Made by a program: the position numbers and the translations under genes. The notes under the pieces were generated by a model. That model was not told the origin of the DNA, did not search any database, and saw nothing but the letters and a program-made list of their open reading frames with translations. Shown one piece after another: positions 12,741-33,047 of a stretch of 40,373 bases of DNA (position 1 is its first letter; the number at the start of each line of letters is the position of its first letter). This stretch comes from Gemmatimonadota bacterium (lineage in GTDB: Bacteria; Gemmatimonadota; Gemmatimonadetes; Gemmatimonadales; Gemmatimonadaceae). Location of the stretch: contig JARIEX010000015.1 of assembly GCA_031127095.1 (NCBI GenBank), forward strand, positions 1-40,373, in the 5' to 3' direction.

Positions 12741-13168
12741 TGGCCGGATCGAACGCTGCGTCCAAGGACGCGAAGAAGCCGAAACCGATGTCGAAGAAGC
12801 ACCTGCAGCACTTCGAGAAGCGGTTGCTCGAGGAGCGCAAGCGCGTGCTCAAGGAGCTCGGGCACCACGGCGAGGCCTTCGGACCCAACGGCGAAGCCGA
12901 CGGCGACACCAGCGCCTACTCCTTCCACATGGCCGATCAGGGCACCGATGCCATGGAGCGCGAAAAGGCGTTCCTGTTCGCCTCGCAGGAGGGCCGGTTC
13001 CTGTTTCACATCGATCAGGCGCTGCGTCGCCTGTACAAGTCGCCGGAAACCTTCGGGAAGTGCCACCAGTGTGGCGAAGAGATCGCCTTCGAACGCCTCG
13101 ATGCCTTGCCGCATGCCCGCTATTGCTTTGCGTGCAAGCAGCGCGAGGAAGACGCGAAGAAGGGCTGA
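12740..13168 (+). CDS. TraR/DksA-family zinc-finger protein
   Basis: These are small coiled-coil/zinc-finger proteins that enter the RNA polymerase secondary channel and modulate initiation, often with ppGpp. A lysine-rich N-terminus and helical hairpin (about residues 17-95) are followed by a C4 zinc finger with C108, C111, C129 and C132. Acidic residues D66 and D70 lie in the tip region (ADQGTDAMEREK). At 142 aa it is DksA-sized. Its place between ileS and lspA corresponds to ylyA of Bacillus, which argues for an orthologous RNA polymerase regulator, not true DksA. The ATG overlaps the ileS stop by one base (TAATG). Confidence 0.88.
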   Translation: MAGSNAASKDAKKPKPMSKKHLQHFEKRLLEERKRVLKELGHHGEAFGPNGEADGDTSAYSFHMADQGTDAMEREKAFLFASQEGRFLFHIDQALRRLYKSPETFGKCHQCGEEIAFERLDALPHARYCFACKQREEDAKKG

Positions 13169-13169
13169 C

Positions 13170-13697
13170 GTGAAGGCGATCGTCGCACTCCCCGTTCTGT
13201 TCGTCGTCATCTTCCTCGATCTGATCACCAAGGCCGTGGCGGTGGCGACGCTGGCACCCGTCGGCATCGCCAGCCCCGTGTTCGGGAACTGGTTCCGGTT
13301 CGCCCTCGTGTACAATCCGGGGGCGGCCTTCGGGCTGCATCTGGGCGATTTCTCGCGGTGGATCTTCATGGGGCTCACCGTGGTGGCCATCGTGATCCTG
13401 TACCGTCTGTATCAGCAGACGGCGCACGATGACCTGCGCAAGGCGCTCGCGATCGCGCTCGTGGCCGCAGGCGCGATCGGCAACGTCATCGACCGCATCC
13501 GGTCGGAGGCCGGTGTCGTGGACTTCATCGACATCGGCGTGGGGCTGCACCGGTGGCCTACCTTCAACGTGGCGGACATCGCCGTGAGCACCGGTGCCTT
13601 TTTACTGGCGTGGGTGCTCTGGGGCGAAGAGCAGCGTGAGGCGGCCGAGGCGGCCGGCCGCGCCACCCCGCCGGATCCTGTCGACCTGCCGCAATGA
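13170..13697 (+). CDS. lspA: Lipoprotein signal peptidase II, copy 1
   Basis: LspA cleaves signal peptides from lipidated prolipoproteins in the inner membrane. Four hydrophobic helices are visible. Conserved features are DLITK in helix 1, NPGAAFG (49-55), the catalytic aspartate D108 in GNVIDRI, and D136 in FNVAD, so it should be active. Length is 175 aa, with a charged proline-rich C-terminal tail after helix 4. The GTG at 13170 lies one base after the preceding stop. It is the first of two tandem lspA genes. Confidence 0.93.
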   Translation: MKAIVALPVLFVVIFLDLITKAVAVATLAPVGIASPVFGNWFRFALVYNPGAAFGLHLGDFSRWIFMGLTVVAIVILYRLYQQTAHDDLRKALAIALVAAGAIGNVIDRIRSEAGVVDFIDIGVGLHRWPTFNVADIAVSTGAFLLAWVLWGEEQREAAEAAGRATPPDPVDLPQ

Positions 13698-14242
13698 GTC
13701 ACCCGCATCGGAGCGCCACCGCATCGGCCGTCATCAACGATGTGCCCGTCGCGTCGGCCTCTCCCCGTTTCTGGATGATCGTCGCGCTCATCGCCGCTTG
13801 CGATGCAGTGACCAAGGCGCTGGCGGTCGAGTATCTCGCGCCGCGGCACGTGCCGCATCAGATCATCGGTGAGGTGGTGCGCTTTACGCTGGCCTACAAT
13901 CCGGGGGCGGCCTTCGGCATGCACGTTGGCCCGGCCTCGCGCTGGATCTTCGCGGCGCTCAGCGTCGTGATCGTGGTGGTGCTCATCCGCGCCACGGCCG
14001 ACCTCACGCGCATTTCTCGCATCGCCGCCGCCGGCGTGCCGATCGTCGTCGGAGGGGCCATCGGCAACCTGCTCGATCGCATCCGGCTGCGGGATGGCGT
14101 GGTGGATTTTATCGACATCGGGATCGGCGACGTCCGCTTCTGGACGTTCAACGTGGCCGACACCGCCGTGACTATTGGAGCAGCGTGTCTCGTGATCGCA
14201 TTGTGGCAGCAGGACAAGGCCGAACAGGCCGCGCAGACGTGA
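13694..14242 (+). CDS. lspA: Lipoprotein signal peptidase II, copy 2
   Basis: This is a second complete LspA directly after the first, overlapping it by ATGA. It has an extra ~22-residue polar N-terminus, then DAVTK, NPGAAFG (69-75), the catalytic D128 in GNLLDRI and D156 in FNVAD. Both copies keep FIDIG before the last helix. The two proteins are alike in the motifs but clearly diverged elsewhere, so this is an old duplication and not an assembly repeat. Length is 182 aa. Whether the copies divide substrates is unknown. Confidence 0.93.
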   Translation: MSHPHRSATASAVINDVPVASASPRFWMIVALIAACDAVTKALAVEYLAPRHVPHQIIGEVVRFTLAYNPGAAFGMHVGPASRWIFAALSVVIVVVLIRATADLTRISRIAAAGVPIVVGGAIGNLLDRIRLRDGVVDFIDIGIGDVRFWTFNVADTAVTIGAACLVIALWQQDKAEQAAQT

Positions 14243-16113: not shown

Positions 16114-17763
16114 ATGGCCGTGCTGCACGAAGCCAAGTACGCCGCGCTCTTTCTGAGTGAAGCGCGCGAGCATCTCGCGGCCATCGACGAGGCGCTGCTG
16201 GCGCTCGAGCAGGCACCACCCGCCGCGCCCCCCCAGGCGCCTGCCGATGCGATCGGCGCGTCGCTCGCCACGGTGTTTCGTGGCGTGCACACCATCAAGG
16301 GCATGGCCGGTGCGATGGGATATCAGGCCGCGGAGCAACTCGCGCACGCCCTCGAGTCGTACGCGGAGCCGATGCGCCGTGCGGGCCACGCGCCGCCTGC
16401 GGATTCGCTGCAGCGGCTCTTCGACGGCACCGAATTGCTGCGCGCGGCGATCGACGCCGTGCCATCGGGGCAGGTGGATCCCACGCAGGCGATGCAGGCG
16501 TTTCTGCGGGGGCTCGCGGCGGCCCCCGAGGCCGGGCCGGCGGCGGTGACCCCGGAGGCGGTCGCGCTGGCGCTGGTCGCACCGGACGCGGTGACGCCCG
16601 ACCCCGGCGCGCCGCGTACGATCCGCCTTGACGCGCGGCGCCTCGATACGCTGCTCGATCTGGTGGGCGAGCTGGTCATCACGCGGGATCGTCTGCTGCG
16701 CGCGCTCGAGGCGTCGGAGCACCCCGATCGAGCCGTCGTGCGCGCGGCACACGATGCGGCGCGGCTCGTGTCCACGCTGCAGGACGAAGTGCTGCAAGCG
16801 CGCATGCTTCCGGCGGCGCAGGTGTTCGACCGCTTCCCGCGTCTCGTGCGCGACCTCGCCCGGGAGCTGGGGAAAGAGGTGCAGTTCACGATGGCCGGTC
16901 GCGATCTCGAGATCGACCGCTCGCTGCTCGACGCCATCGGCGAGCCGATCATGCACTTGCTGCGCAACGCGCTTGATCACGGCCTCGAAGACGCGGCCAC
17001 GCGGCGGGCGGCGGGCAAGCCGGCCGCCGGCCGGCTCACGTTGCGCGCGGCGCGCGAGCGCGCGGCCCTCGTGATTCAGGTGCGCGACGACGGCCGCGGC
17101 ATCGATCGCGACGCCGTGCGACAGCGCGCGCAGGAGCAGGGACTCCATGGCGACTCGGCCGCGGCACTCACCGACGACGCGCTGCTGCAACTCGTGGCGT
17201 ATCCGGGGCTCTCGACAGCACGCGCCGTGACCGCGCTCTCGGGACGCGGCGTCGGTGTGGATGTGGTGAACACCCGCGTCCGGGCGCTGGGGGGACGGCT
17301 CGAACTCGCGACCACCGCGGGGGAGGGCACACTCTTCACGATGCGGCTACCGCTCACGCTCGTGATCATGCGGGCGCTGCTCGTGCAGGTGGGGGGCGCG
17401 ACCTACGCGATCCCGGCCGCTCACGTGCGGGAAGTGCTGGAGTTCACGGGCGCCTCGCGCGGCACGGGGGCGCTCACCATCACGGTCCGTGACGAAACCG
17501 TTCCGCTGGTGGCGCTCCAGCAGCGGTTCGAGGACGATCCCCTCGCGCCGGCCGCGGCGTCCGTGGACGGCGTCCGCCACGTGGCCATCGTGGACGTGGC
17601 CGGACGGCGCACGGCGTTGCTCGTCGATGCCCTGCTGGCGCAGCAGGATATTCTGGTGAAACCGCTCGAGACGGTGCGCGGCGCACGCCCCTGGTTCAGC
17701 GGGGCCACGATTCTCGGTGACGGGAGCCCCGCGCTCATCGTCGATGTGAGCAGTGTGGCGTGA
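16114..17763 (+). CDS. cheA: CheA histidine kinase, apparently lacking P2
   Basis: CheA autophosphorylates and passes phosphate to CheY and CheB. P1 (Hpt) carries the phospho-histidine H59 in VHTIKGMAG. About 45 low-complexity alanine/proline residues (about 125-168) then replace the P2 CheY-docking domain. P3 dimerisation (DTLLDLVGELVITRDRL) follows. P4 has an N box LLRNALDHGLED, a G1 box DDGRGID and GRGVGVDVV. The P5 CheW-like domain runs to the end. At 549 aa it is shorter than P2-bearing CheA (about 650). No ribosome-binding site is obvious before ATG 16114, 39 bases after cheY. Confidence 0.95.
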   Translation: MAVLHEAKYAALFLSEAREHLAAIDEALLALEQAPPAAPPQAPADAIGASLATVFRGVHTIKGMAGAMGYQAAEQLAHALESYAEPMRRAGHAPPADSLQRLFDGTELLRAAIDAVPSGQVDPTQAMQAFLRGLAAAPEAGPAAVTPEAVALALVAPDAVTPDPGAPRTIRLDARRLDTLLDLVGELVITRDRLLRALEASEHPDRAVVRAAHDAARLVSTLQDEVLQARMLPAAQVFDRFPRLVRDLARELGKEVQFTMAGRDLEIDRSLLDAIGEPIMHLLRNALDHGLEDAATRRAAGKPAAGRLTLRAARERAALVIQVRDDGRGIDRDAVRQRAQEQGLHGDSAAALTDDALLQLVAYPGLSTARAVTALSGRGVGVDVVNTRVRALGGRLELATTAGEGTLFTMRLPLTLVIMRALLVQVGGATYAIPAAHVREVLEFTGASRGTGALTITVRDETVPLVALQQRFEDDPLAPAAASVDGVRHVAIVDVAGRRTALLVDALLAQQDILVKPLETVRGARPWFSGATILGDGSPALIVDVSSVA

Positions 17764-17803: not shown

Positions 17804-18424
17804 ATGCCCGCGATCCACTCGTTGCAGACCCTCCAGATGGACGCGCTGCGTGAAACGGCCAACATCGGCGCGGGTCACGCCGCCACCGCGCTGTCGCAGC
17901 TCACCGGCAGCACGATCATGATCAAGGTGCCCGCCATCAGCGTGGCCAGCCTCGCGGCGTTGCCGTCGTCGTTCTCCCCCGCGGAGGAGCCGGTGGCTGC
18001 GGTGCACATGCACATGCTCGGTGATCTCACCGGCCAGACGATGCTCGTGTTCCCGAAGTCCACGGTGATGCGTCTCGCCGAGCTGATGCTGCGCCGGCCT
18101 GTCGGCTCCTCGGTCGCGCTGAGTGAACTCGAAGCCTCGGCCATCAAGGAAGCGGGCAACATCCTGAGCGGTGCGTACATGAATGCGCTCAGCGACTTCC
18201 TCGGCATGCTGCTGCTGCCGTCGCCGCCCAGCCTCGTCATCGACATGTCCGCCGCCGTGATGGCGAGCACCATCGGGGCGGGCGGGTCCGATCAGGAGTC
18301 GGCCCTGTGTGTCGAGAATGAATTCCTGCTGACCGAGCTGGATCAGACGCTGCGCGGGTTCTTCCTGCTGCTCCCGGATCCGGCCTCGTTGCAGGTGATG
18401 CTCCGCGCGCTGCGGCTCGCCTGA
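17804..18424 (+). CDS. cheC: CheC-type CheY-P phosphatase
   Basis: CheC/CheX/FliY proteins dephosphorylate CheY-P. The protein has the family's two pseudo-symmetric active helices, each with the E-x2-N pair: E17/N20 in RETANIGAGHAATAL and E116/N119 in KEAGNILSGAYMNAL. Both sites are intact, as in true CheC. Length is 206 aa. The AAGGTGAG ribosome-binding site is well placed before ATG 17804. CheC replaces CheZ as signal terminator here. Its usual partner CheD is not in the window. Confidence 0.93.
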   Translation: MPAIHSLQTLQMDALRETANIGAGHAATALSQLTGSTIMIKVPAISVASLAALPSSFSPAEEPVAAVHMHMLGDLTGQTMLVFPKSTVMRLAELMLRRPVGSSVALSELEASAIKEAGNILSGAYMNALSDFLGMLLLPSPPSLVIDMSAAVMASTIGAGGSDQESALCVENEFLLTELDQTLRGFFLLLPDPASLQVMLRALRLA

Positions 18425-18444: not shown

Positions 18445-21117
18445 ATGTCTCCCGTGCGGCCGGCCGGTCGCGATCTGGATTTGCTGCGGGCGCTCATCGG
18501 GCGCGTCGATCAGCAGGACTCCGGTGCGTTCAACAACCTCGGTGTGCTGTACCACGCGCGCGGCTTGCACGCCGAAGCGGTCGATGCGTTTCTGCGCGCA
18601 CTGGCGCTCGACCCGCGCATGCGCACCGCCGCGCGCAATCTCGAAATCGCGGCCACGCAACCCGATGCGTGCAGCGTCCGCATGGCCGATCTCGATGCGC
18701 GCGTGGCGGCCGATCCCGATGATCGCGCCGCGGCGCGCGAGCGGGCACGTCTGGCACGGCTGGTCGGGCACACCACTGCGGCGATCCAGCAGCTGGATAC
18801 CCTCATCGCCGCGGACCCCGACGATGCGGTGGCGCTCTTCGAGCGCGGGTTGATCGAGCAGCGCGCCGGTGACCTCCGCCGCGCGCAGCGTTGGTTCGAA
18901 CGCGCGGTGAACGTGGGCGGCGGGGACACCGACGCGCGCCTCCATCTCGCCGAAGTGTTGTATCAACGCGGACAGAACGAGCAGGCGCTCGATCGCCTCG
19001 ACGCGTTGCTGGCCGCGTTTCCCGGCAACGCCGACGCGCATCTGCTGCGCGGCTTCGTGCTGGGTGACATGGGCCGTCATGACGCGGCACGCGATGCCGC
19101 GCGGCGCGCCGCGCAGCTCAATCCGTCGCTCACCACGGTGCAGGCCGACCTGTCGCTCGAACCGACCACGCTCCCCGACGTGGCGCGCATCGTTGGGGCG
19201 GCTCCCCGCATGATGAGCGTGGAGGCCGAGGGCACGCTGGCCCACTACGGTCTGGGCTTGGCCTTCCGGCAGCGCGGCTACTTCGACGAAGCCCGCCGCG
19301 AGTTCGAACGCTCGCTGGCGAACGGCGAAGATCCCCGGCTCGCCCAGCACGCGCTGGCCGAACTCGATCTCGTGGCTGGTGCGTTCGACGCGGCGCGCGA
19401 GCGATATGACGCGCTGCTGGCGCGGGAGGAACAGCCGCGCCTTTGGAACGAGCACGGCGTGGCGTTGCACCAGAGCGGTCGGGTGGCCGCCGCCGCCGAC
19501 AGCTATCGCGCGGCTCTGCGGTGCGATCCGCGCTCCCCGCTGGCCAATAACAATCTGGGCGTCGCGCTCTACGACCTCGGCGACGTGGGGGCCGCGCGTG
19601 AGTCGTTCCTGCGCGCCGCCGAGTTCGATCCCACGCTGGTCGTGGCCCGGCTCAACCTCGCCCGGTGGTGTTCGGCGCAGCGCGATCCGCTGGCGGCACT
19701 GGCGCTGCTGCGCGAACTCGTGGCGTTCCATCCGCGCGACGCCGATGCGTGGCAGGAAATGGGCACCGTCCTGCAGGCATTGCACCGGCCGGAGGACGCG
19801 CGCGACGCGCTGCTCACCGCCATCGAGTGCCGCCCGGCGTTCGCCGAAGCCCGCTTCGCGCTCGGGCAGGTGCTGGCGCAACTGGGCGACGCCGACGGTG
19901 CGGCGCGCGAGACGGAGGCGGCCCTGCGCTACGCCCCCGTGCGGATGGATGTGCGGATGGCCGTCGGGATCGATCTGCAGCGGGAATGCCCCGACGCCGT
20001 GGGTGGGCTGACGTTGCTCACGGTGCGGGGCGGGGAACCGCTGCGCGGCACGGCGGTCGCCGACAATCTCCTCGAGGCGCTGCTCCCCGAGCAGGCACCG
20101 GCTGCGGTGGTGTCGGTGCACGCGGGCGAGGGCGTCGTGACGCCGGCGGATGAGGGAACGGCGTGGTGCGACGAGGCCGACCGGTTTGCCGCCCGGGCGC
20201 TGCAGGGCGAAGCGCTGGACCGGTATGCGCGGGCGCGTGAGCGGCTCGATGCCACCGGCGTCGCGCTCGCGACCATGGAGCCGGCGACGCAGGCGCTGTG
20301 GCAGCGCGCGGCGCTCGGGGAAGCGCGCTGTCTCTGCCTGCTGGGGCGCGGTGGGGAGGCGCTGCCGGTGCTCAAGCGTGCGGGCGCGATGTGGCCGCAG
20401 CTTCCGGAGCTGTTGGCGCTCTTCGCCGGGGCGGCAGCGGCCGACGCGCGGCGGACGCCGGCCAGCGGTGAAGTGGCACGTACCGCGATGCTGCGGCTGT
20501 TGCGCCTGGACGTGACGAGTGCCGCGCTGCTGCACTTTGCCGGTGACGCGGCCATGACGCTGGGGGACGACGCGCTGGCGCTGGCGTTCTACCGCCGTGC
20601 GCTGGCGCACGACGCCGCGCGTCCGACGGCGCGCGTGGCGATCGCCCGCATGCTGCGGCAGCGCGGTGATCTGCTGGCGGCGCGACTGGAGCTGGTGGCG
20701 GCGCTGACGGCGGTCCCGAACTGGCGTGACGCCGTCATCGAGTTGGCGCGGGTGCATCACGACGCGCAGCGGTACATGGACGCGCGGTGGTTGCTGGTCG
20801 ATCTGCTTCGCCGGGTGCCGACGGACCGCGACGCGCTGCTGCTGCTGGCCGAGGTGCTCATCGGCGAGGCCCGTGCCCCGGACGCGCGCGTCGTCGTGGA
20901 CCGCATGCTGCGGCACGATGCCGACTTCACGGGGGCCCTCTGGTGCGACGGGGTGTTGCTGGCGCAGCAGGCGCGTATGCGTGAAGCGATGGCGCGCTGG
21001 ACGCGGCTGGCGCAGTCGCCTGAGCCGGATCGGTATGTGGAGCAGGCACGCCACGCGGTGTCGACGGCGGTGTCCGCAGCGGTCGCGATGGCGGGTGATC
21101 CCGCACGCGTCGCATGA
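18445..21117 (+). CDS. Large TPR protein (890 aa), unknown role
   Basis: This is a soluble protein with no signal peptide or membrane helix. TPR-like units run from about residue 28 (GAFNNLGVLYHARGLHAEAVDAFLRALALDP) to about 490 and again from about 590 to the end. They are separated by a less repetitive stretch (about 500-590) that contains GGLTLLTVRGGEPLRG. Such alpha-solenoids are protein-interaction scaffolds. It lies between cheC and the DUF4388/mglA genes, 20 bases after cheC, so it probably scaffolds this signalling/polarity module; no partner is proven. ATG 18445 gives the natural N-terminus. Weak similarity to other TPR proteins should not be read as function. Confidence 0.88.
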   Translation: MSPVRPAGRDLDLLRALIGRVDQQDSGAFNNLGVLYHARGLHAEAVDAFLRALALDPRMRTAARNLEIAATQPDACSVRMADLDARVAADPDDRAAARERARLARLVGHTTAAIQQLDTLIAADPDDAVALFERGLIEQRAGDLRRAQRWFERAVNVGGGDTDARLHLAEVLYQRGQNEQALDRLDALLAAFPGNADAHLLRGFVLGDMGRHDAARDAARRAAQLNPSLTTVQADLSLEPTTLPDVARIVGAAPRMMSVEAEGTLAHYGLGLAFRQRGYFDEARREFERSLANGEDPRLAQHALAELDLVAGAFDAARERYDALLAREEQPRLWNEHGVALHQSGRVAAAADSYRAALRCDPRSPLANNNLGVALYDLGDVGAARESFLRAAEFDPTLVVARLNLARWCSAQRDPLAALALLRELVAFHPRDADAWQEMGTVLQALHRPEDARDALLTAIECRPAFAEARFALGQVLAQLGDADGAARETEAALRYAPVRMDVRMAVGIDLQRECPDAVGGLTLLTVRGGEPLRGTAVADNLLEALLPEQAPAAVVSVHAGEGVVTPADEGTAWCDEADRFAARALQGEALDRYARARERLDATGVALATMEPATQALWQRAALGEARCLCLLGRGGEALPVLKRAGAMWPQLPELLALFAGAAAADARRTPASGEVARTAMLRLLRLDVTSAALLHFAGDAAMTLGDDALALAFYRRALAHDAARPTARVAIARMLRQRGDLLAARLELVAALTAVPNWRDAVIELARVHHDAQRYMDARWLLVDLLRRVPTDRDALLLLAEVLIGEARAPDARVVVDRMLRHDADFTGALWCDGVLLAQQARMREAMARWTRLAQSPEPDRYVEQARHAVSTAVSAAVAMAGDPARVA

Positions 21118-21157: not shown

Positions 21158-22291
21158 ATGAGCCTCGAAGGACGACTGCGCGATCTCGGGCTGGCCGAGG
21201 TGCTGCAGCTCCTCTCGGGGAGCCGCAAAACCGGCACGCTGTATCTCCATGCCCCGCTGCACGGGCGTCGTGCGACCGTGTCGTTTCAGCACGGCGCGAT
21301 TGTCGACGCGCGCAGTTGGAGCGTGGCGGCGCCGTCGGTCGCGCCGGCGGCACGCACCGCTGCCGAAGCGCGCGAGGTCGAAGCCACCGCGCTGGATCTG
21401 CTGCTCTGGCGCGACGGTACGTTCCGCTTCGCCCCCCCGGCGCAGTCGGGACCGTCCAGCGCTGCGATCCACCTGGCCGTCGAGCCGTTGCTGATCGAGG
21501 CGGCACAGCGGGCCGAGCTCTGGCAGCGTATCGGCGACCGGGTGCCGCATGCGCGCGTCGTCCCCGCGTTCGTGGATGTCGAGCCGCAGCAGTTGCCGCT
21601 GCTCCGGCTCTCCCCCGCGCAGTGGGAACTGCTCACCCGCGTGGATGGCGTGCGCGACCTGCCGGCGCTGGCGGCCGCGCTCGGGAAAGACCTGCTCGAC
21701 GTGGCCGAGCGCGTCCATGGGCTCATCGGGGCCGGGCTGCTGACGCTGCGCGAGGAACCCGTCGCACCGCGTCGCAATCCGACGCCGCCGACCGTCGACG
21801 CCATCCCGGCCCCCGACGCCGGGATCACCGGCGATCTGTGGATCCCCTCGACCGCGCACACCCGACACTCGTCCACGCCCCCCTCGACGCCGGTGGCCAG
21901 GCCGACGGCCGTCCCGTTCGCGGGGCCGGCGACTGAAGCGGACCTTCAGGACGGGGAGGATTCGCTGTTCGATCCCGTCGAGCTGGGGGTCATCACGGAG
22001 AGCGGGCTGGCGGCGCCCAACCCGCCGGTTGGCACGTCCGGCGCCTGGCCGGTTGCGTCCTCAGGGCTTGGGCCGTCCTTGCTGCGAGGGGAGACGGACG
22101 GGCCGGTCACGGGCGACGAGGGTGCGCGCTGGTGCCGGCTTGGTGACGATGCGGCCCGGCGTGGTGACTTCGAGCTGGCGCTGACCCACTGGACCGCCGC
22201 CCTCCGGCAACCGGAGTCGATCGCGGACGCGGCACGCGTGCGTGAAGCCATGGCACTCACGGCCCGTTTGCACGCGCTGCTGCATCCGTAG
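21158..22291 (+). CDS. DUF4388 (PATAN-like) protein with disordered linker
   Basis: The N-terminus MSLEGRLRDLGLAEVLQLL, followed by SGSRKTGTLYL, is a clear DUF4388 domain (about residues 1-140). This family overlaps the PATAN domain, known from cyanobacterial PatA-type phototaxis regulators and often found with Ras-like GTPases. A winged-helix-like segment follows (about 145-205, SPAQWELLTRVDGVRDLPALAAALG). Then come ~110 proline/glycine/serine-rich residues and a short TPR-like C-terminus. Start choice: ATG 21158 fits the family N-terminus and has GGGAG 6 bases upstream. ATG 21131, with GAGAGG upstream, would add nine residues. It precedes mglA. Confidence 0.82.
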   Translation: MSLEGRLRDLGLAEVLQLLSGSRKTGTLYLHAPLHGRRATVSFQHGAIVDARSWSVAAPSVAPAARTAAEAREVEATALDLLLWRDGTFRFAPPAQSGPSSAAIHLAVEPLLIEAAQRAELWQRIGDRVPHARVVPAFVDVEPQQLPLLRLSPAQWELLTRVDGVRDLPALAAALGKDLLDVAERVHGLIGAGLLTLREEPVAPRRNPTPPTVDAIPAPDAGITGDLWIPSTAHTRHSSTPPSTPVARPTAVPFAGPATEADLQDGEDSLFDPVELGVITESGLAAPNPPVGTSGAWPVASSGLGPSLLRGETDGPVTGDEGARWCRLGDDAARRGDFELALTHWTAALRQPESIADAARVREAMALTARLHALLHP

Positions 22292-22360: not shown

Positions 22361-23077
22361 ATGCCCATTGTCGATCACGCCACGCGGCTGATCACCTGCA
22401 AGCTGGTCTACTACGGCCCGGGACGTTCCGGCAAGACGACGAATCTGACCTATCTGCATTCGGCCCTGCCGAACGGACAGGTCGGAACGCTCACGTCGCT
22501 GGCGACCCGGCGCGACCGCACGCTCTTTTTCGACTATCTCCCCGTGGAGTTGGGCACGGTGGGGGCGTACAACGTGCGCTTTCAGCTCTACACCGTGCCG
22601 GGGCAGCCGTACTACCGGTCCATCCGCCAGCTCGTGCTGCAGGGCGCCGACGGCATCGTGTTCGTCGCCGACAGCCAGCGGCATCGCTGGAGCGACAATC
22701 TCGAGAGCCTTCAGGATATGCACGCCTGCCTCGCCGAGCATGGCGTGGACGCCCGGGCGCTGCCGCTGGTCATGCAGTACAACAAGCAGGACCTCCCCGC
22801 CTCGCTGGCGGTGAGTGTGGCGGATCTCTCCGTCGCCCTCAACTTCCGCGCCGTGCCCGAATTCGCCGGCGATGCGCTGCACGGCGTGGGCGTGTTCGAC
22901 ACGCTGCGGTCGCTGGGGATGCGCGTGCTCAAACGGCTGGGCGCCGACGAAGGGACGGAGTCTGCGAAGCGCGCGGCGCGGGCGTTGCGCACCCCGGTCT
23001 CCTCGCCGCGCATCACCTCGGGTGACGTCCCCATGGGGCTGTATGCCGACGCCGCGGTCACGGCGGCGGTCGCATGA
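22361..23077 (+). CDS. mglA: MglA-type Ras-like polarity GTPase
   Basis: MglA cycles between GTP and GDP forms to set cell polarity and drive gliding or type IV pilus motility in Myxococcus, and has homologues in many phyla. P-loop GPGRSGKTT is at 19-27, then SLATRRDRTLFFDYLP. TVPGQ (78-82) keeps the MglA-specific threonine in place of the Ras aspartate, and NKQD is at 141-144. The 238 aa include a C-terminal extension of ~40 residues beyond the usual ~195. GGAGAGGAG lies just before the ATG; the longer frame adds an arginine-rich stretch and is unlikely. No roadblock/MglB partner gene is adjacent. The stop overlaps the next ATG. Confidence 0.93.
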   Translation: MPIVDHATRLITCKLVYYGPGRSGKTTNLTYLHSALPNGQVGTLTSLATRRDRTLFFDYLPVELGTVGAYNVRFQLYTVPGQPYYRSIRQLVLQGADGIVFVADSQRHRWSDNLESLQDMHACLAEHGVDARALPLVMQYNKQDLPASLAVSVADLSVALNFRAVPEFAGDALHGVGVFDTLRSLGMRVLKRLGADEGTESAKRAARALRTPVSSPRITSGDVPMGLYADAAVTAAVA

Positions 23078-24828
23078 GCGGCATGCTCGACGGGACGTAC
23101 CGGTTCGACACCTTCGTGGTGGGCTCATCCAACCGGCTCGCGGCATCGGCCGCCCGTGCGGTCGCGGATGCTCCGGGGAACGCCTACAACCCGTTGTTCG
23201 TGTACGGCGGCTCCGGCCTCGGCAAGACGCACCTGGTCGCCGCCATCGCGCATCGCGCGCAGGTCGTGCACCCGGACCTGCGCGTCGAGTTCACCTCCGG
23301 CGAGGAGGTGGCCGAGCATCTCCAGCGCGTGATCGCGAGCGGGCAGCCGCAGCGGTTTGCCGAGCACTATCAGCAGGTGGATCTGCTCATCCTCGACGAC
23401 GTGCAGTTGCTCACGGGGCAGCGGGAAACGCAATCGGAGCTGCTGCGGCTGTTGCACGTCATGCAGGGGACCGGTCGACAGCTCGTGCTTACCAGCGACC
23501 GGCAGCCGGCGGACATCCCCGACGTCGATCAACGGCTGCTGTCGCGTCTGTCGGGCGGGCTGGTCGTCGATGTGGGCGCGCCCGATTACGAAATGCGCCT
23601 CGCCATCCTGCGCAATGTGTGCGGCGAGCGCGCGACCGTGTTCGGGGATGGTGTGCTGGCCGAGGTGGCGCGGCTCCCCTTCGGAAATGTGCGCGAACTC
23701 AAGGGCGCCCTGAACAAGCTCACCGCCTTTCAACAGCTCGAAGGCGCGCCCGTGGCGGCGGCCGACGTCCGCGCGGTGTTGGGGGAGCGCGGGGTGGTCA
23801 CGCCCCCGACGCGTATCGCCGCCATTATTCCCGACGGCAGTGATTACGACGGCTTTCTGGCCGACGTGATGCAGGAAGTGGAGACGCGTGTGGAGCCGTG
23901 GCGGGTCGCGCTCGGCGATGCGGTCGCGCGCTGGAAGGGCGACGGGTACAACACCGCCGTGCTCGAACGCGCGATGACGCTTGCCACGGCCCCCGACGTG
24001 GACGGTTTGTTGACGACTTTCGCGGCGGCCGTCGAGCATGTGCGGCAGCTCGAGGCGCAGGCCGTCAGTCTCGATCCGGCGCTGCGGGCACACGCCGCGT
24101 TCCGCGATGTGGCGCGTGTGGCTGAGGCGACCGCCGTGGTGGCGCGCGCCGTGGCGGCGCTGCCGCCGCTGCCGGCACCGTTCCCGGCGTTCACCCGCGA
24201 CCGCATCGAGGTGGATTCGGCCAATCAGCTCGCCGTGGCGGCCATCGACGCCGTGATCGCGCAGCCCGGCGTGCGCTACAATCCGCTGTTCCTGCACGGG
24301 CCGGCGGGTGGGGGCAAATCGCATCTGGCGCATGCGCTGGGTCACGCGCTGGCTCACGCACGGCAAACGGCCGGCGCGGCAGGATCGCACCGCGGCACCG
24401 TGGCCTGTCTCTCGGCGACCGCCTTTGTGGACGAGCTCATCGCCGCGATGCAGGATGGCACCATCGACCGCTGGCGCGCGCGCTTCCGCACCGCCGACGT
24501 GCTCGTGCTGGATGACGTCGAGGTGCTGGCCGGCAAGGAACGCACGCAGGATGAGCTGTTCCAGTTGTTCAATCAGCTGTACGAGCGCGGCGGGCAGATC
24601 GTGTTCACCAGCCGCGTGGCGCCGCGTGATCTGACGGGCATCGCCGATCGGTTGCGCTCGCGGTTCGAGGGCGGGCTCGTGGTGGAGGTGCCGGCGCGTG
24701 CGTCGGTGGGCGTCTCGCCGCGCAGCGCGCCGACGGCGGGAGTACCCGACCGCTTTTTCGAGGATCGCGAAAAAACGATCTGGGATTGGCCGGAGCTCGG
24801 CGGACGCCTGATGGAGGAGTATCGCTGA
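23074..24828 (+). CDS. Tandem DnaA-type AAA+ ATPase lacking DNA-binding domain IV
   Basis: The 584 aa protein carries two DnaA/Hda-like AAA+ domains. Domain 1 (about 7-240) has FVVGSSNRLAASAA, Walker A GGSGLGKT (45-52), Walker B LLILDDV (D108/D109), a box VII arginine (QRLLSRLSGGL) and a sensor-II lid (GNVRELKGALNKL). A helical linker follows (about 260-370, containing WRVALGDAVARWKGDGY). Domain 2 (about 372-555) has Walker A GPAGGGKS (409-416), Walker B D480/D481, AGKERTQDELF and RLRSRFEGGL, but ends without a lid. The C-terminal tail is EDREKTIWDWPELGGRLMEEYR-like. There is no domain I and no domain IV helix-turn-helix, so it is not the replication initiator. Coupled to mglA (ATGA) and to the next gene (TGATG). 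Confidence 0.9.
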   Translation: MSGMLDGTYRFDTFVVGSSNRLAASAARAVADAPGNAYNPLFVYGGSGLGKTHLVAAIAHRAQVVHPDLRVEFTSGEEVAEHLQRVIASGQPQRFAEHYQQVDLLILDDVQLLTGQRETQSELLRLLHVMQGTGRQLVLTSDRQPADIPDVDQRLLSRLSGGLVVDVGAPDYEMRLAILRNVCGERATVFGDGVLAEVARLPFGNVRELKGALNKLTAFQQLEGAPVAAADVRAVLGERGVVTPPTRIAAIIPDGSDYDGFLADVMQEVETRVEPWRVALGDAVARWKGDGYNTAVLERAMTLATAPDVDGLLTTFAAAVEHVRQLEAQAVSLDPALRAHAAFRDVARVAEATAVVARAVAALPPLPAPFPAFTRDRIEVDSANQLAVAAIDAVIAQPGVRYNPLFLHGPAGGGKSHLAHALGHALAHARQTAGAAGSHRGTVACLSATAFVDELIAAMQDGTIDRWRARFRTADVLVLDDVEVLAGKERTQDELFQLFNQLYERGGQIVFTSRVAPRDLTGIADRLRSRFEGGLVVEVPARASVGVSPRSAPTAGVPDRFFEDREKTIWDWPELGGRLMEEYR

Positions 24829-26501
24829 TGGCCATCCGTGGCAGTCTCAGTGAGGCCTCGCTGGCCGATGTGTTACAGCTGCTCGCGCTGGGCCAGAAAA
24901 CCGGCTGCCTGAGCGTGGCGCGCGAGGGGAGCTTCGGCACGGTGCACTTCGCCGGCGGGCGCATCGTGCACGCCGCCTTGGTGAACCGGCGCGACCGTCT
25001 CGGCGATCGTCTCATTCGACTGGGCGTGCTGGCCCCCGACGATCTGGCGCGGGTGAACGCCGCCGGCGCCATCCATGACGACCGTGACCTCGCGCGCGTG
25101 TTGCTTGCGCAGGCGATGGTGCCGCGTGACGTGCTCGTGCGCGAGTATCGCACGCAAGTCGAGGAGGCCGTCTATCAGCTGTTCGCCTGGTCGCAGGGCA
25201 CGTTCACCTTCGAGCCGGAGGCGGAGGACGCGACCGAGGCGCCGCTGCTCTCCGTGGGGGCCGACTCGCTGCTGCTCGAAGGCGCGCGCCGGGTGGACGA
25301 GTGGACGCAGATCGAGAAGAAAGTGTCGAGTCTCGACCTGATCTTCGAGCTGGACAGCGCGCGGCTCGCCCAGCGGGAGGGCCCGCTCAGCGCGACGCAG
25401 GAGCGCATTCTGTCGCTGCTCGATGGTACGCACGATCTGCTCACCGTGATCGAGCGCTCGGGGCTGGGCGAATTCGACGTGGGCAAGGCGGTGTACGGAC
25501 TGGTCACCGCGGGCTACGTGCACCGGGTGGGGCGCAGTGCGGCGCGTCGGCAGCCGTCGCCCGAGAGCCGCGTCGCGGAGCATCGCAACCTCGGCGTGGC
25601 CTTCTACCGCACGGGCATGCTCGACGAGGCGCAGCGGGAATTCCGGCGCGTGCTCGAACTGCGCGACGCCGACGGCGTGTCGCGCTTTCATCTCGGCCTC
25701 GTGCAGTTGCAGCGCCGCGACTGGGATGGGGCGGTGGAGACGTTCCGGCGGGCCGCACAGGAGCCCGATGCGCCGGCGGCCGTGTTCCACAATCTGGCGT
25801 ACGCGTACGAACAGCTGGGTGACCTCGCCGCCGCCGCCGCGCATCTGGACGATGCGGCGCGTCGGCTGACGCTGCCGGATCCGCGCCTCGCGCTGTCGCG
25901 TGCGACCATCGCGCTGCGCCGCGGTGATCCGGCCGGCGCCGAGGAGGCGCTGGCGGAGGCGCGCCGTGCGTGGGGCCCACGACAGCCCTCGGCGGCGTGG
26001 TTTCACGTGGCCGGACTGGCGGCCGCGTGCCGTGGCGAGCTCGCGCGGGCGGCCGCGGTGCTCGAGGAAGGGCTCTCGTGGCATCCGCATGCGGCGGTGC
26101 TGCTCAATAATCTGGCGGTCGTGCACGAGCGCCGCGGCAGCGCAGAGCTGGCCGCACGCACCCTCGAGCACGCGTTGCTGGAGGACGCCAACGGCGCCCA
26201 CCTGCATAAGAACCTCGGCGACTATCTGTACCGCGCGCAGCGGTACGACGACGCCCTCGAGGCGTTCGAGCGTGTGGTGCGTCTGGCCCCATCGCACGGG
26301 CCCGATGTGTACCTCAAGATCGGCAACATCCACTATCGGCGCGGCGCGCTCGAGGCCGCGCGCGCGGCGTGGGATGCCGCCCTCGTGCTCGATCCCGATC
26401 ATCGCATCGTGCGCGCCAATCTCGCGGTGATCCCGCCGGTGGCCGTGCCATCGGCAGCGCGGTCGGCAGGACACGCGGCGGTCCTCGGAGAGGCCGCATG
26501 A
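24828..26501 (+). CDS. DUF4388-TPR protein
   Basis: The N-terminal DUF4388/PATAN-like domain (about residues 1-165) starts GSLSEASLADVLQLLALGQKTG. It contains the characteristic helical insertion (RDRLGDRLIRLGVLAPDDLARV...ARVLLAQAMV), followed by EEAVYQLFAWSQGTFTFEP. A winged-helix-like part follows (about 185-235, ATQERILSLLDGTHDLLTVIERS). TPR repeats then run from about 250 (EHRNLGVAFYRTGMLDEAQREFRRVLEL) to about 535. The 557 aa protein looks soluble. GGAGGAG lies just before ATG 24828, which overlaps the previous stop by one base. Together with the 21158 gene it brackets mglA and the AAA+ gene, suggesting the four products act together; the mechanism is unknown. Confidence 0.88.
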   Translation: MAIRGSLSEASLADVLQLLALGQKTGCLSVAREGSFGTVHFAGGRIVHAALVNRRDRLGDRLIRLGVLAPDDLARVNAAGAIHDDRDLARVLLAQAMVPRDVLVREYRTQVEEAVYQLFAWSQGTFTFEPEAEDATEAPLLSVGADSLLLEGARRVDEWTQIEKKVSSLDLIFELDSARLAQREGPLSATQERILSLLDGTHDLLTVIERSGLGEFDVGKAVYGLVTAGYVHRVGRSAARRQPSPESRVAEHRNLGVAFYRTGMLDEAQREFRRVLELRDADGVSRFHLGLVQLQRRDWDGAVETFRRAAQEPDAPAAVFHNLAYAYEQLGDLAAAAAHLDDAARRLTLPDPRLALSRATIALRRGDPAGAEEALAEARRAWGPRQPSAAWFHVAGLAAACRGELARAAAVLEEGLSWHPHAAVLLNNLAVVHERRGSAELAARTLEHALLEDANGAHLHKNLGDYLYRAQRYDDALEAFERVVRLAPSHGPDVYLKIGNIHYRRGALEAARAAWDAALVLDPDHRIVRANLAVIPPVAVPSAARSAGHAAVLGEAA

Positions 26502-26510
26502 GAGGATCCC

Positions 26511-27671
26511 GTGGCGGCTGAGGGCGTACGCCGGCGGGTCCTCGTCGTGGACGACAGCGCCTTCATGCGGCGCCTGGTCAGCGATCTCGTCACGTCGAGC
26601 GGTGAGTTCGAGGTGGTCGGGACGGCATGCGACGGCCTGGATGCCTTGCGGCAGCTGCGGACGCTCGACCCGGAGCTGGTCACGCTCGATATCGACATGC
26701 CGCAGCTGGATGGGCTGGCGTGCCTGGACCGGATCATGCGCGACTGGCCGCGGCCGGTCGTGATACTCACCGCCGGCGCCGCAGACGCCGGGGCCGACGT
26801 CACGCAGCGTGCCCTCGCCCGCGGGGCGGCGTGTTGTGTGCGCAAGCCGTCGGGGCCGGTCAGCGTCGACCTGGAACGCGTGCGTGAGCAGTTGCTGGAC
26901 GCGCTCCGCACGGCGGCGGTGTCGCCGACCGGCACGCCGACCGGCACGCCGGTCGCGGTGGCCCACGCCGCCTCCGCCGCGCCGCGGGCACTGGTGTGTA
27001 TCGCGTCGTCCACCGGAGGGCCGGCGGCGCTGGCGCAGGTCATTCCGGCGCTGCCGCGGTTTGACCACGCCGCCGTCCTGGTCGTGCAACACATGCCCGT
27101 CGGGTTCACCGCCAGCTTCGCGCGGCGGTTACACACCCTCTCGCGCGTGCCGGTGCACGAGGCCCGCCATGGCGAACCACTGCGCGCGGGCCATGTGTAC
27201 CTCGCGCCCGGCGGCGTCCATCTGCGGGTGGGCGGACCACGCCATGCGCCGGAGACGTGGCTCGATGAAGAGCCGCCGCTCTGGGGGGTGCGCCCCGCGG
27301 CCGATCCACTGTTCACATCGGCGGTCGATTACGTCGGGGCCGCCTGCGTCGGCGTGGTGCTCACGGGCATGGGCCGCGACGGGGCCGATGGCTTGCACGC
27401 CGTCCGCGCGGCGGGCGGCATCGGGATCGTGCAGGATCGGGCCACCTGTGTCGTGGACAGCATGCCCGAGTCCGCCCTGCGCATCGCCGGCGCCGACGAG
27501 ATCGTTGCCCTCCCCGACGTGGCGTCGGCCATCGTCCGCCACGTCGCCACGCGCGTGGTACGGGACCGCGCCCTGCCACGCCACACGCCGCGGGACCACG
27601 AGGCGGTGGTCCACGATCGGCCGGGCGTTGGTACTGTTCCCCCTCCCGATCCCGTTCCGCCTCCTCGATGA
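26511..27671 (+). CDS. cheB: CheB protein-glutamate methylesterase/response regulator
   Basis: CheB removes receptor methyl groups when phosphorylated by CheA. The receiver domain has D14/D15 and phospho-acceptor D60 (LVTLDIDMPQLDG). The linker includes a short threonine/glycine/proline repeat (about 138-147). The methylesterase domain has catalytic S167 (SSTGGPAAL), H194 (VQHMP) and D290 (LTGMGRDGADG), all intact. A ~45-residue basic/proline-rich tail extends past the usual end. The GTG at 26511 is preceded by GAGAGG. No CheR methyltransferase or receptor is present in the window, so the substrate is encoded elsewhere. Confidence 0.95.
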   Translation: MAAEGVRRRVLVVDDSAFMRRLVSDLVTSSGEFEVVGTACDGLDALRQLRTLDPELVTLDIDMPQLDGLACLDRIMRDWPRPVVILTAGAADAGADVTQRALARGAACCVRKPSGPVSVDLERVREQLLDALRTAAVSPTGTPTGTPVAVAHAASAAPRALVCIASSTGGPAALAQVIPALPRFDHAAVLVVQHMPVGFTASFARRLHTLSRVPVHEARHGEPLRAGHVYLAPGGVHLRVGGPRHAPETWLDEEPPLWGVRPAADPLFTSAVDYVGAACVGVVLTGMGRDGADGLHAVRAAGGIGIVQDRATCVVDSMPESALRIAGADEIVALPDVASAIVRHVATRVVRDRALPRHTPRDHEAVVHDRPGVGTVPPPDPVPPPR

Positions 27672-32096: not shown

Positions 32097-33047
32097 GTGA
32101 GCCCGGTCCGTACTCTCCCATCGGCGCGCGTTGGCGCCTACCACGTCCCTGTGCTGCTGGGCGAGATCGAAGCGCTGCTCGCCGGCGCCGACACTGTCCT
32201 CGACTGCACGCTGGGCGGCGGCGGGCACACGGCTGCCCTGCTCGAACGCGGGATGCGTGTCACCGGTGTCGACCGCGATCCGCGGGCGCTCGCTGCGGCG
32301 CGTGAGCGGCTCGCGGACGTCGAGCGTACCGGCCAGTTCCGCGCGCTGCTCGGCAACTACGCGGCCCTCGAGGCAGCCGGCCTTGGGCCCGACGATCGGT
32401 TCGACGGCATTCTGCTCGACCTCGGCGTCTCGTCGCACCAGTTTGACGACCTCACCCGCGGCTTCACCTTCCGCGAAGGGGCGCCGCTCGACATGCGGAT
32501 GGGGACCGACGCGGAAACCGACGCCGGCGAGTTGCTGAATACCATCGACGAAGTCGATTTGTCGGCACTGCTGCGTGCCTACGCCGACGAGCCGCGCGCC
32601 GCCCGCATGGCGCGCGAGATTGTGCGCCGCCGCGATCGGCGGCCGTTCGCGACCGCCGATGATCTCGTGGACGCCATCCGTGCCGTGCTCGGACCGCGCA
32701 GTGGCGCACCGGATTTCGCGCGCATTTTTCAGGCCATCCGCATTGCCGTGAACGACGAACTGTCGGGCCTCGAGCACGCGCTGCCGTCGCTGCGCGACCG
32801 CCTGACGCCCGGCGGTGTGCTCGCGATTATCAGCTATCACTCCGGTGAAGATCGACTCGTCAAGAACGCCTTCCGCGATTGGAGCACGGCGTGCATCTGC
32901 CCGCCGCGGCAGATGATCTGCACCTGTCGCGGGATCCCGCTGGGGACGACGCTCACCAAGCGCCCCGTCAGCGCGACGGAGCACGAAATCCAGACCAACA
33001 CGCGCGCCCGGAGTGCACGGTTACGCGCCTGGCGCCGCGCCGCCTGA
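32097..33047 (+). CDS. rsmH: 16S rRNA (cytosine1402-N4)-methyltransferase RsmH
   Basis: RsmH (MraW) methylates C1402 of 16S rRNA using SAM. YHVPVLLGEIEALL at the start, the SAM motif VLDCTLGGGGHTAALLERG, FDGILLDLGVSSHQFDD and the end motif ISYHSGEDRLVKNAFRDW are all family hallmarks. Length is 316 aa. It also carries CPPRQMICTCRG, a cysteine-rich insert commonly present in the family. The GTG at 32097 is preferred; another GTG overlaps two bases earlier in a different frame. It is the first gene of this dcw segment because mraZ is missing. Confidence 0.95.
   Translation: MSPVRTLPSARVGAYHVPVLLGEIEALLAGADTVLDCTLGGGGHTAALLERGMRVTGVDRDPRALAAARERLADVERTGQFRALLGNYAALEAAGLGPDDRFDGILLDLGVSSHQFDDLTRGFTFREGAPLDMRMGTDAETDAGELLNTIDEVDLSALLRAYADEPRAARMAREIVRRRDRRPFATADDLVDAIRAVLGPRSGAPDFARIFQAIRIAVNDELSGLEHALPSLRDRLTPGGVLAIISYHSGEDRLVKNAFRDWSTACICPPRQMICTCRGIPLGTTLTKRPVSATEHEIQTNTRARSARLRAWRRAA

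Follow-up and report, generated by a model that had tools for sequence, protein, structure and literature searches.

The window, by which we mean the whole stretch of 40,373 nucleotides that was analysed (contig JARIEX010000015.1 of the Gemmatimonadota bacterium assembly GCA_031127095.1), contains a Che-type signalling operon in which a gene for a double DnaA-like AAA+ protein (23074..24828, + strand) is inserted among genes for an MglA-type GTPase and PATAN (DUF4388) proteins. MglA GTPase, Che kinase and PATAN are all encoded in this one locus. The genes around the DnaA-like gene are the following:

16114..17763, + strand: CheA histidine kinase (Hpt, dimerisation, HATPase and CheW domains)
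17804..18424, + strand: CheC/CheX-type phosphatase
18445..21117, + strand: TPR protein of the operon
21158..22291, + strand: second PATAN (DUF4388) protein
22361..23077, + strand: MglA-type GTPase (E=2e-58 to M. xanthus MglA structures)
24828..26501, + strand: PATAN (DUF4388) and TPR protein, constant partner gene of the DnaA-like gene
26511..27671, + strand: CheB (receiver and methylesterase)

At stop and start, mglA and the DnaA-like gene overlap by 4 nt (ATGA), and the DnaA-like and PATAN-TPR genes by 1 nt (TGATG). This position between MglA and DUF4388/PATAN genes makes plausible the link to cell polarity that the original prediction, made from the letters of the window, had drawn. A CheW-like gene (start 15281) and a CheY-like gene (start 15709), both named by eye from the translation, lie upstream of CheA. 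The gene order RluD-CheW/CheY-CheA-CheC/X-TPR-PATAN-MglA-DnaA-like-PATAN/TPR-CheB-TPR-peptidase-TPR-MraW is largely conserved among relatives. The operon of family f2 additionally contains CheR and CheD (both named by eye) and two roadblock (MglB-like) genes, one of which matches under the Pfam cut-off. In most of family f5, the operon has no mglA and a single MglA is encoded elsewhere, with the DnaA-like and PATAN-TPR genes still paired.

Several further features were observed at or near the locus. Two consecutive ORFs at 12948-14242 match signal peptidase II (Peptidase_A8) and form a tandem lspA pair upstream of rluD. MraW (32097-33047) directly follows the operon here and in many relatives, so that the signalling operon adjoins an apparent division/cell-wall (dcw) cluster. 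A second MglA paralogue is encoded in the genome of the window (G000, contig C137:27204-27656) and also in relatives. Two rearranged loci (L160 and L149, genomes G157 and G309) lack both MglA and the DnaA-like gene as well as the first half of the PATAN gene, and Che genes adjoin what remains.

Architecture of the DnaA-like protein

The DnaA-like protein is composed of two DnaA-type modules, a linker and a C-terminal tail:

23074..24828, + strand: double DnaA-like AAA+ protein, open from ATG 23074 to TGA 24828 (584 aa and stop), Pfam Bac_DnaA twice
23086..23793, + strand: module 1, a complete DnaA domain III with base and lid (residues 5-240)
23206-23229, + strand: Walker A of module 1
within 23383-23403, + strand: Walker B of module 1
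23533-23550, + strand: box VII of module 1
23686-23706, + strand: sensor II region NVREL of module 1
23842..24162, + strand: conserved helical linker of about 107 aa (residues 257-363)
24196..24690, + strand: module 2, DnaA domain IIIa only, ending after box VII (residues 375-539)
24298-24321, + strand: Walker A of module 2
24535-24549, + strand: KERTQ of module 2
24649-24666, + strand: box VII of module 2
24748..24825, + strand: C-terminal tail DRFFEDREKTIWDWPELGGRLMEEYR (about residues 562-584)

In a genome-wide search, the two Bac_DnaA matches score 175.4 bits (E=2.0e-51) and 138.8 bits (E=3.5e-40) against a cut-off of 23 bits, with a whole-protein E value of 2.4e-92, and the modules share 36% identity with each other (BLASTP E=3e-26). 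Both carry Walker A (residues 45-52 and 409-416), Walker B (residues 108-109 and 480-481) and the box VII arginines (154/158 and 526/530), which bears out the double DnaA-type AAA+ protein proposed from the sequence. The modules are not equivalent. Module 1 is the complete domain III that had been expected of both halves, whereas module 2 has no lid (domain IIIb with sensor II). Similarly, the ERTQ motif that had been assigned to both halves is present in module 2 (KERTQ, residues 488-492), but module 1 has RETQ, its ISM position reading QRETQ (R to E), unlike DnaA.

The predicted absence of DnaA domain I and of the DNA-binding domain IV was confirmed by profile searches, in which neither these domains nor an HTH gave a match anywhere in the 584-aa protein. 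The AAA+ domain starts at residue 5, and the four preceding residues leave no room for domain I. The linker is not a cryptic domain IV, since HH-align gave a probability of 0.1-0.4% for linker versus domain IV and 99.8-100% for the positive controls. The linker and the tail do not feature in the original prediction. The linker has no relatives in Pfam, NCBIfam or PDB; its first helix (DYDGFLADV...) is retained in the mini-genes described below. The tail core, at the C-terminus of the protein, consists of 20 residues with the pattern 'REKxxWxWP..GRLIEEYR'.

The AF2 model of the 584-aa protein has a mean pLDDT of 80, with low confidence at residues 239-257 and 543-584. Among PDB structures it matches B. 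subtilis DnaA domain III best (8bv3; target TM 0.92, 1.9 Å), and the model of a homologue that has both lids agrees with it; both models are single chains with a pTM of 0.44-0.47, so the relative domain placement is uncertain. In the tree of AAA+ cores, module 1 and the single forms make up one supported group (98*) and module 2 another (94, not starred). Both groups fall on the DnaA side, away from Hda, rather than with another AAA+ family, the grouping that would have spoken against a DnaA origin; the tree does not resolve how module 1, module 2 and DnaA branch from one another, and long branches warn against reading more into it. Membership of the Hda family was rejected, as the two halves reach 77.9 and 66.9 bits with TIGR03420 against a cut-off of 194.8 bits (the whole-protein score of 137.5 bits is a sum over the two modules). 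A sliding-clamp-binding motif was not found at the N-terminus, where only the four residues precede the AAA+ domain. A separate DnaA is encoded in the same genome (contig C138, 568-aa frame).

Distribution and stepwise reduction

In a sample of the phylum, the linker profile has hits in 152 of the 256 good genomes and in 86 of the 119 genera, and the Che operon with the DnaA-like gene is kept in most Gemmatimonadota. Homologues from congeners are 63-76% identical, those from the order's other families 42-47%. The presence of the gene across the phylum rules out a window-specific oddity or a frame artefact. Among the 80 loci listed from a scan of public contigs, the double form is seen in Gemmatimonadota only and the other listed loci have DnaA-type ORFs only; it may exist outside the phylum. 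In the open-access literature, we found no published account of the DnaA-like operon protein, no report of DUF4388 together with MglA, and none of Gemmatimonadetes with MglA, type IV pili and chemotaxis combined; the combination of 'DnaA-like' and Gemmatimonas led to photosynthesis plasmids only.

Related loci display a series from the double AAA+ protein through a single AAA+ protein and a linker and tail without AAA+ to a peptide of 55-75 aa. Module sequence is present on both sides of the linker in 107 of 135 distinct linker-bearing ORFs, on the N-terminal side only in 15, on the C-terminal side only in 11 (at least some of which lie at contig ends) and on neither side in 2. Walker A is retained in 121/122 copies of module 1 and 99/118 of module 2, and most members of family f5 have a module 2 without it. 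Fewer than 75 residues, too few for a lid and the tail, follow the module 2 box VII in 25 of 99 sequences. Nineteen of these are Gemmatimonas-type and of identical lid-less length, which excludes an assembly error; the others belong to families f4 and f5. Lid 2 is kept in five Gemmatimonas species, and the module 2 lid is lost within Gemmatimonas, in the subclade of the window.

The reduction extends further in individual genomes. In one Gemmatimonas (G012) the linker is lost and the tail degenerate, another genome (G084) encodes a single AAA+ with the tail, and two genomes that are 97-100% complete (G183 and G265) encode the linker and tail with no AAA+; in these two, the true DnaA is the sole other full-scoring DnaA-type match. 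In 12 genomes of three genera, an ORF of 55-75 aa combines the first linker helix with the tail. We take this mini-gene to be a real gene on account of its dN/dS of 0-0.2 in nine pairs. The tail is thus conserved even in forms stripped of every AAA+ module. Separately, two loci (L123 in G133 and L102 in G097) have DnaA-type ORFs of 369-379 aa, and both genomes have further DnaA-type matches.

This series bears on the proposal that the protein is an Hda-like regulator that pairs with DnaA, titrating or inactivating it, and thereby ties replication or the position of the chromosome to polarity. With its box VII arginine fingers and DnaA fold, the protein could form pairs with the DnaA that the genome encodes, and Hda and HdaA (DnaA inactivators) are likewise DnaA-type AAA+ proteins without a DNA-binding domain. 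However, the DnaA-like protein lies below the Hda cut-off, has no clamp-binding extension, comprises two modules and sits on a separate branch. Its operon holds motility-signalling genes and no replication gene, and a mechanism of pairing with DnaA cannot explain the AAA+-free versions at the same locus in relatives. With no replication feature found and the AAA+ modules dispensable at the locus, neither titration nor the coupling of replication to polarity is supported, and we regard this reading as improbable.

The mini-gene loci also differ in the adjacent gene. Counted from the start of the PATAN-TPR protein, the stretch up to RRxDEW measures 106 residues at exactly the 12 mini-gene loci and 159-162 at the 83 remaining ones; a 53-residue helical insertion of the PATAN domain is lost in 12/12 of the former versus 0/83 of the latter. 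A paralogous PATAN protein keeps the insertion in the same mini-gene genomes where it is seen. The coincident loss suggests a mutual dependence between the PATAN insertion and the body of the DnaA-like protein. The correlation may represent one evolutionary event, since the length is the same in all 12 loci and the DnaA tree leaves undecided whether the three genera form one clade.

Type IV pili and the proposed role of the protein

DnaA-type ATPases have roles in replication, in its regulation and in DNA transposition, and the partners of PATAN domains are, to our knowledge, known only in part. PilB, the type IV pilus extension motor, scores above the curated cut-off in 20/20 genomes with the operon and 2/10 without it (Fisher p=8e-6; 30 sampled genomes, kinship ignored), and also in the genome of the window. 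In Synechocystis, PATAN regulators bind or act on PilB (PMC10519157, PMC7690835), and in Myxococcus type IVa pili are stimulated by MglA and the TPR protein SgmX (PMC7519303, PMC11580455). The Che/MglA operon most likely controls type IV pili.

The stepwise reduction of the AAA+ modules to a peptide of 55-75 residues indicates that the protein is probably conserved as a protein adaptor, not as a replication factor. From these sequence comparisons, we lean towards the view that the protein acts as a DnaA-derived scaffold or adaptor in the control of type IV pili by a Che-MglA-PATAN signalling system. The tail and the first linker helix would dock on the neighbouring PATAN-TPR protein, whose gene stays the partner even where the mglA of the operon is gone, and the remaining linker and the ATPase modules would contact the PATAN insertion. 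Where present, the ATPase modules would assemble in an ATP-dependent manner like those of DnaA and bring PATAN-TPR and MglA together in a cluster, probably a polar one. The site where PATAN-TPR engages PilB would then be set by Che phosphorylation and MglA-GTP. Module 1 would be the working ATPase and module 2 an eroding partner subunit, lid-less here and mostly Walker A-less in family f5. We infer most firmly that the conserved function resides in the linker start and the tail, because both outlive the ATPase modules, and least firmly which partner would bind each of these two ends.

Module 2 keeps FV and KERTQ at the positions aligned to the ssDNA contacts of DnaA (presumably V211, K243 and R245 in E. 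coli), and module 1 does not; KERTQ is mostly kept in module 2 and almost never found in module 1. These residues count against a pure adaptor, which would not need them, and could point to a sensor in which module 2 binds ssDNA or RNA and reports to the polarity system. However, module 2 is missing from the single forms and degenerate in family f5, and KERTQ may be mere inheritance, which leaves such a sensor very improbable. It is also unlikely, though less so, that the protein is an ATP-driven remodelling factor which hooks its substrate, MglA or a pilus motor protein, by the tail and then loads or switches it, as other AAA+ clamp or helicase loaders do. Such a factor would account for the near-complete retention of Walker A in module 1 together with Walker B, box VII and sensor II, and for the 4-nt overlap with mglA, which probably reflects translational coupling; its DnaA-clade relatives IstB and DnaC, which give weaker profile matches, act as loaders. 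It would not account for a locus that persists without catalytic modules in two genomes and the 12 mini-gene genomes, or for a DnaA-like gene that stays in most of family f5 without the mglA of the operon.

Within the scaffold or adaptor reading, we tentatively raise the possibility that a nucleotide-switched oligomeric scaffold for polarity arose by capture and doubling of a replication-initiator ATPase, and in several lineages was replaced in place by a peptide of 55-75 residues keeping only the docking ends. A DnaA-type ATPase here belongs to a polarity/pilus signalling operon that is conserved in most of a phylum, and the stages that nature offers between double ATPase and peptide show which residues are indispensable to the system. 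Concrete interface predictions for PATAN come from the tail and first helix of the linker and from the PATAN insertion that is lost in parallel, and the job of a DnaA module outside replication becomes directly testable in cultured Gemmatimonas.

Compared with DnaA domain III, the protein shares the fold (TM 0.92), Walker A and B, box VII, the sensor II of module 1 and 39-41% identity. Unlike DnaA, it lacks domains I and IV, is doubled, has the extra linker and tail and is encoded in a motility-signalling operon. The helper ATPases IstB, DnaC and DnaI are also DnaA-clade AAA+ loaders, but they match less well than DnaA, and the DnaA-like gene has no transposase or helicase partner gene. The MglA-SgmX-FrzS-SopA polarity module of Myxococcus, which governs type IVa pili, likewise combines the MglA GTPase, TPR proteins and a Che-type system; the parts of the literature on this module that we consulted describe no DnaA-like component, whereas here PATAN-TPR and the DnaA-like protein adjoin MglA. 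In the cyanobacterial PATAN-CheY regulators PixG, PixE and LsiR, PATAN is likewise the output of a Che-type or photoreceptor system on the pilus motor; in contrast, the PATAN domain here is fused to TPRs and paired with a putative DnaA-like adaptor.
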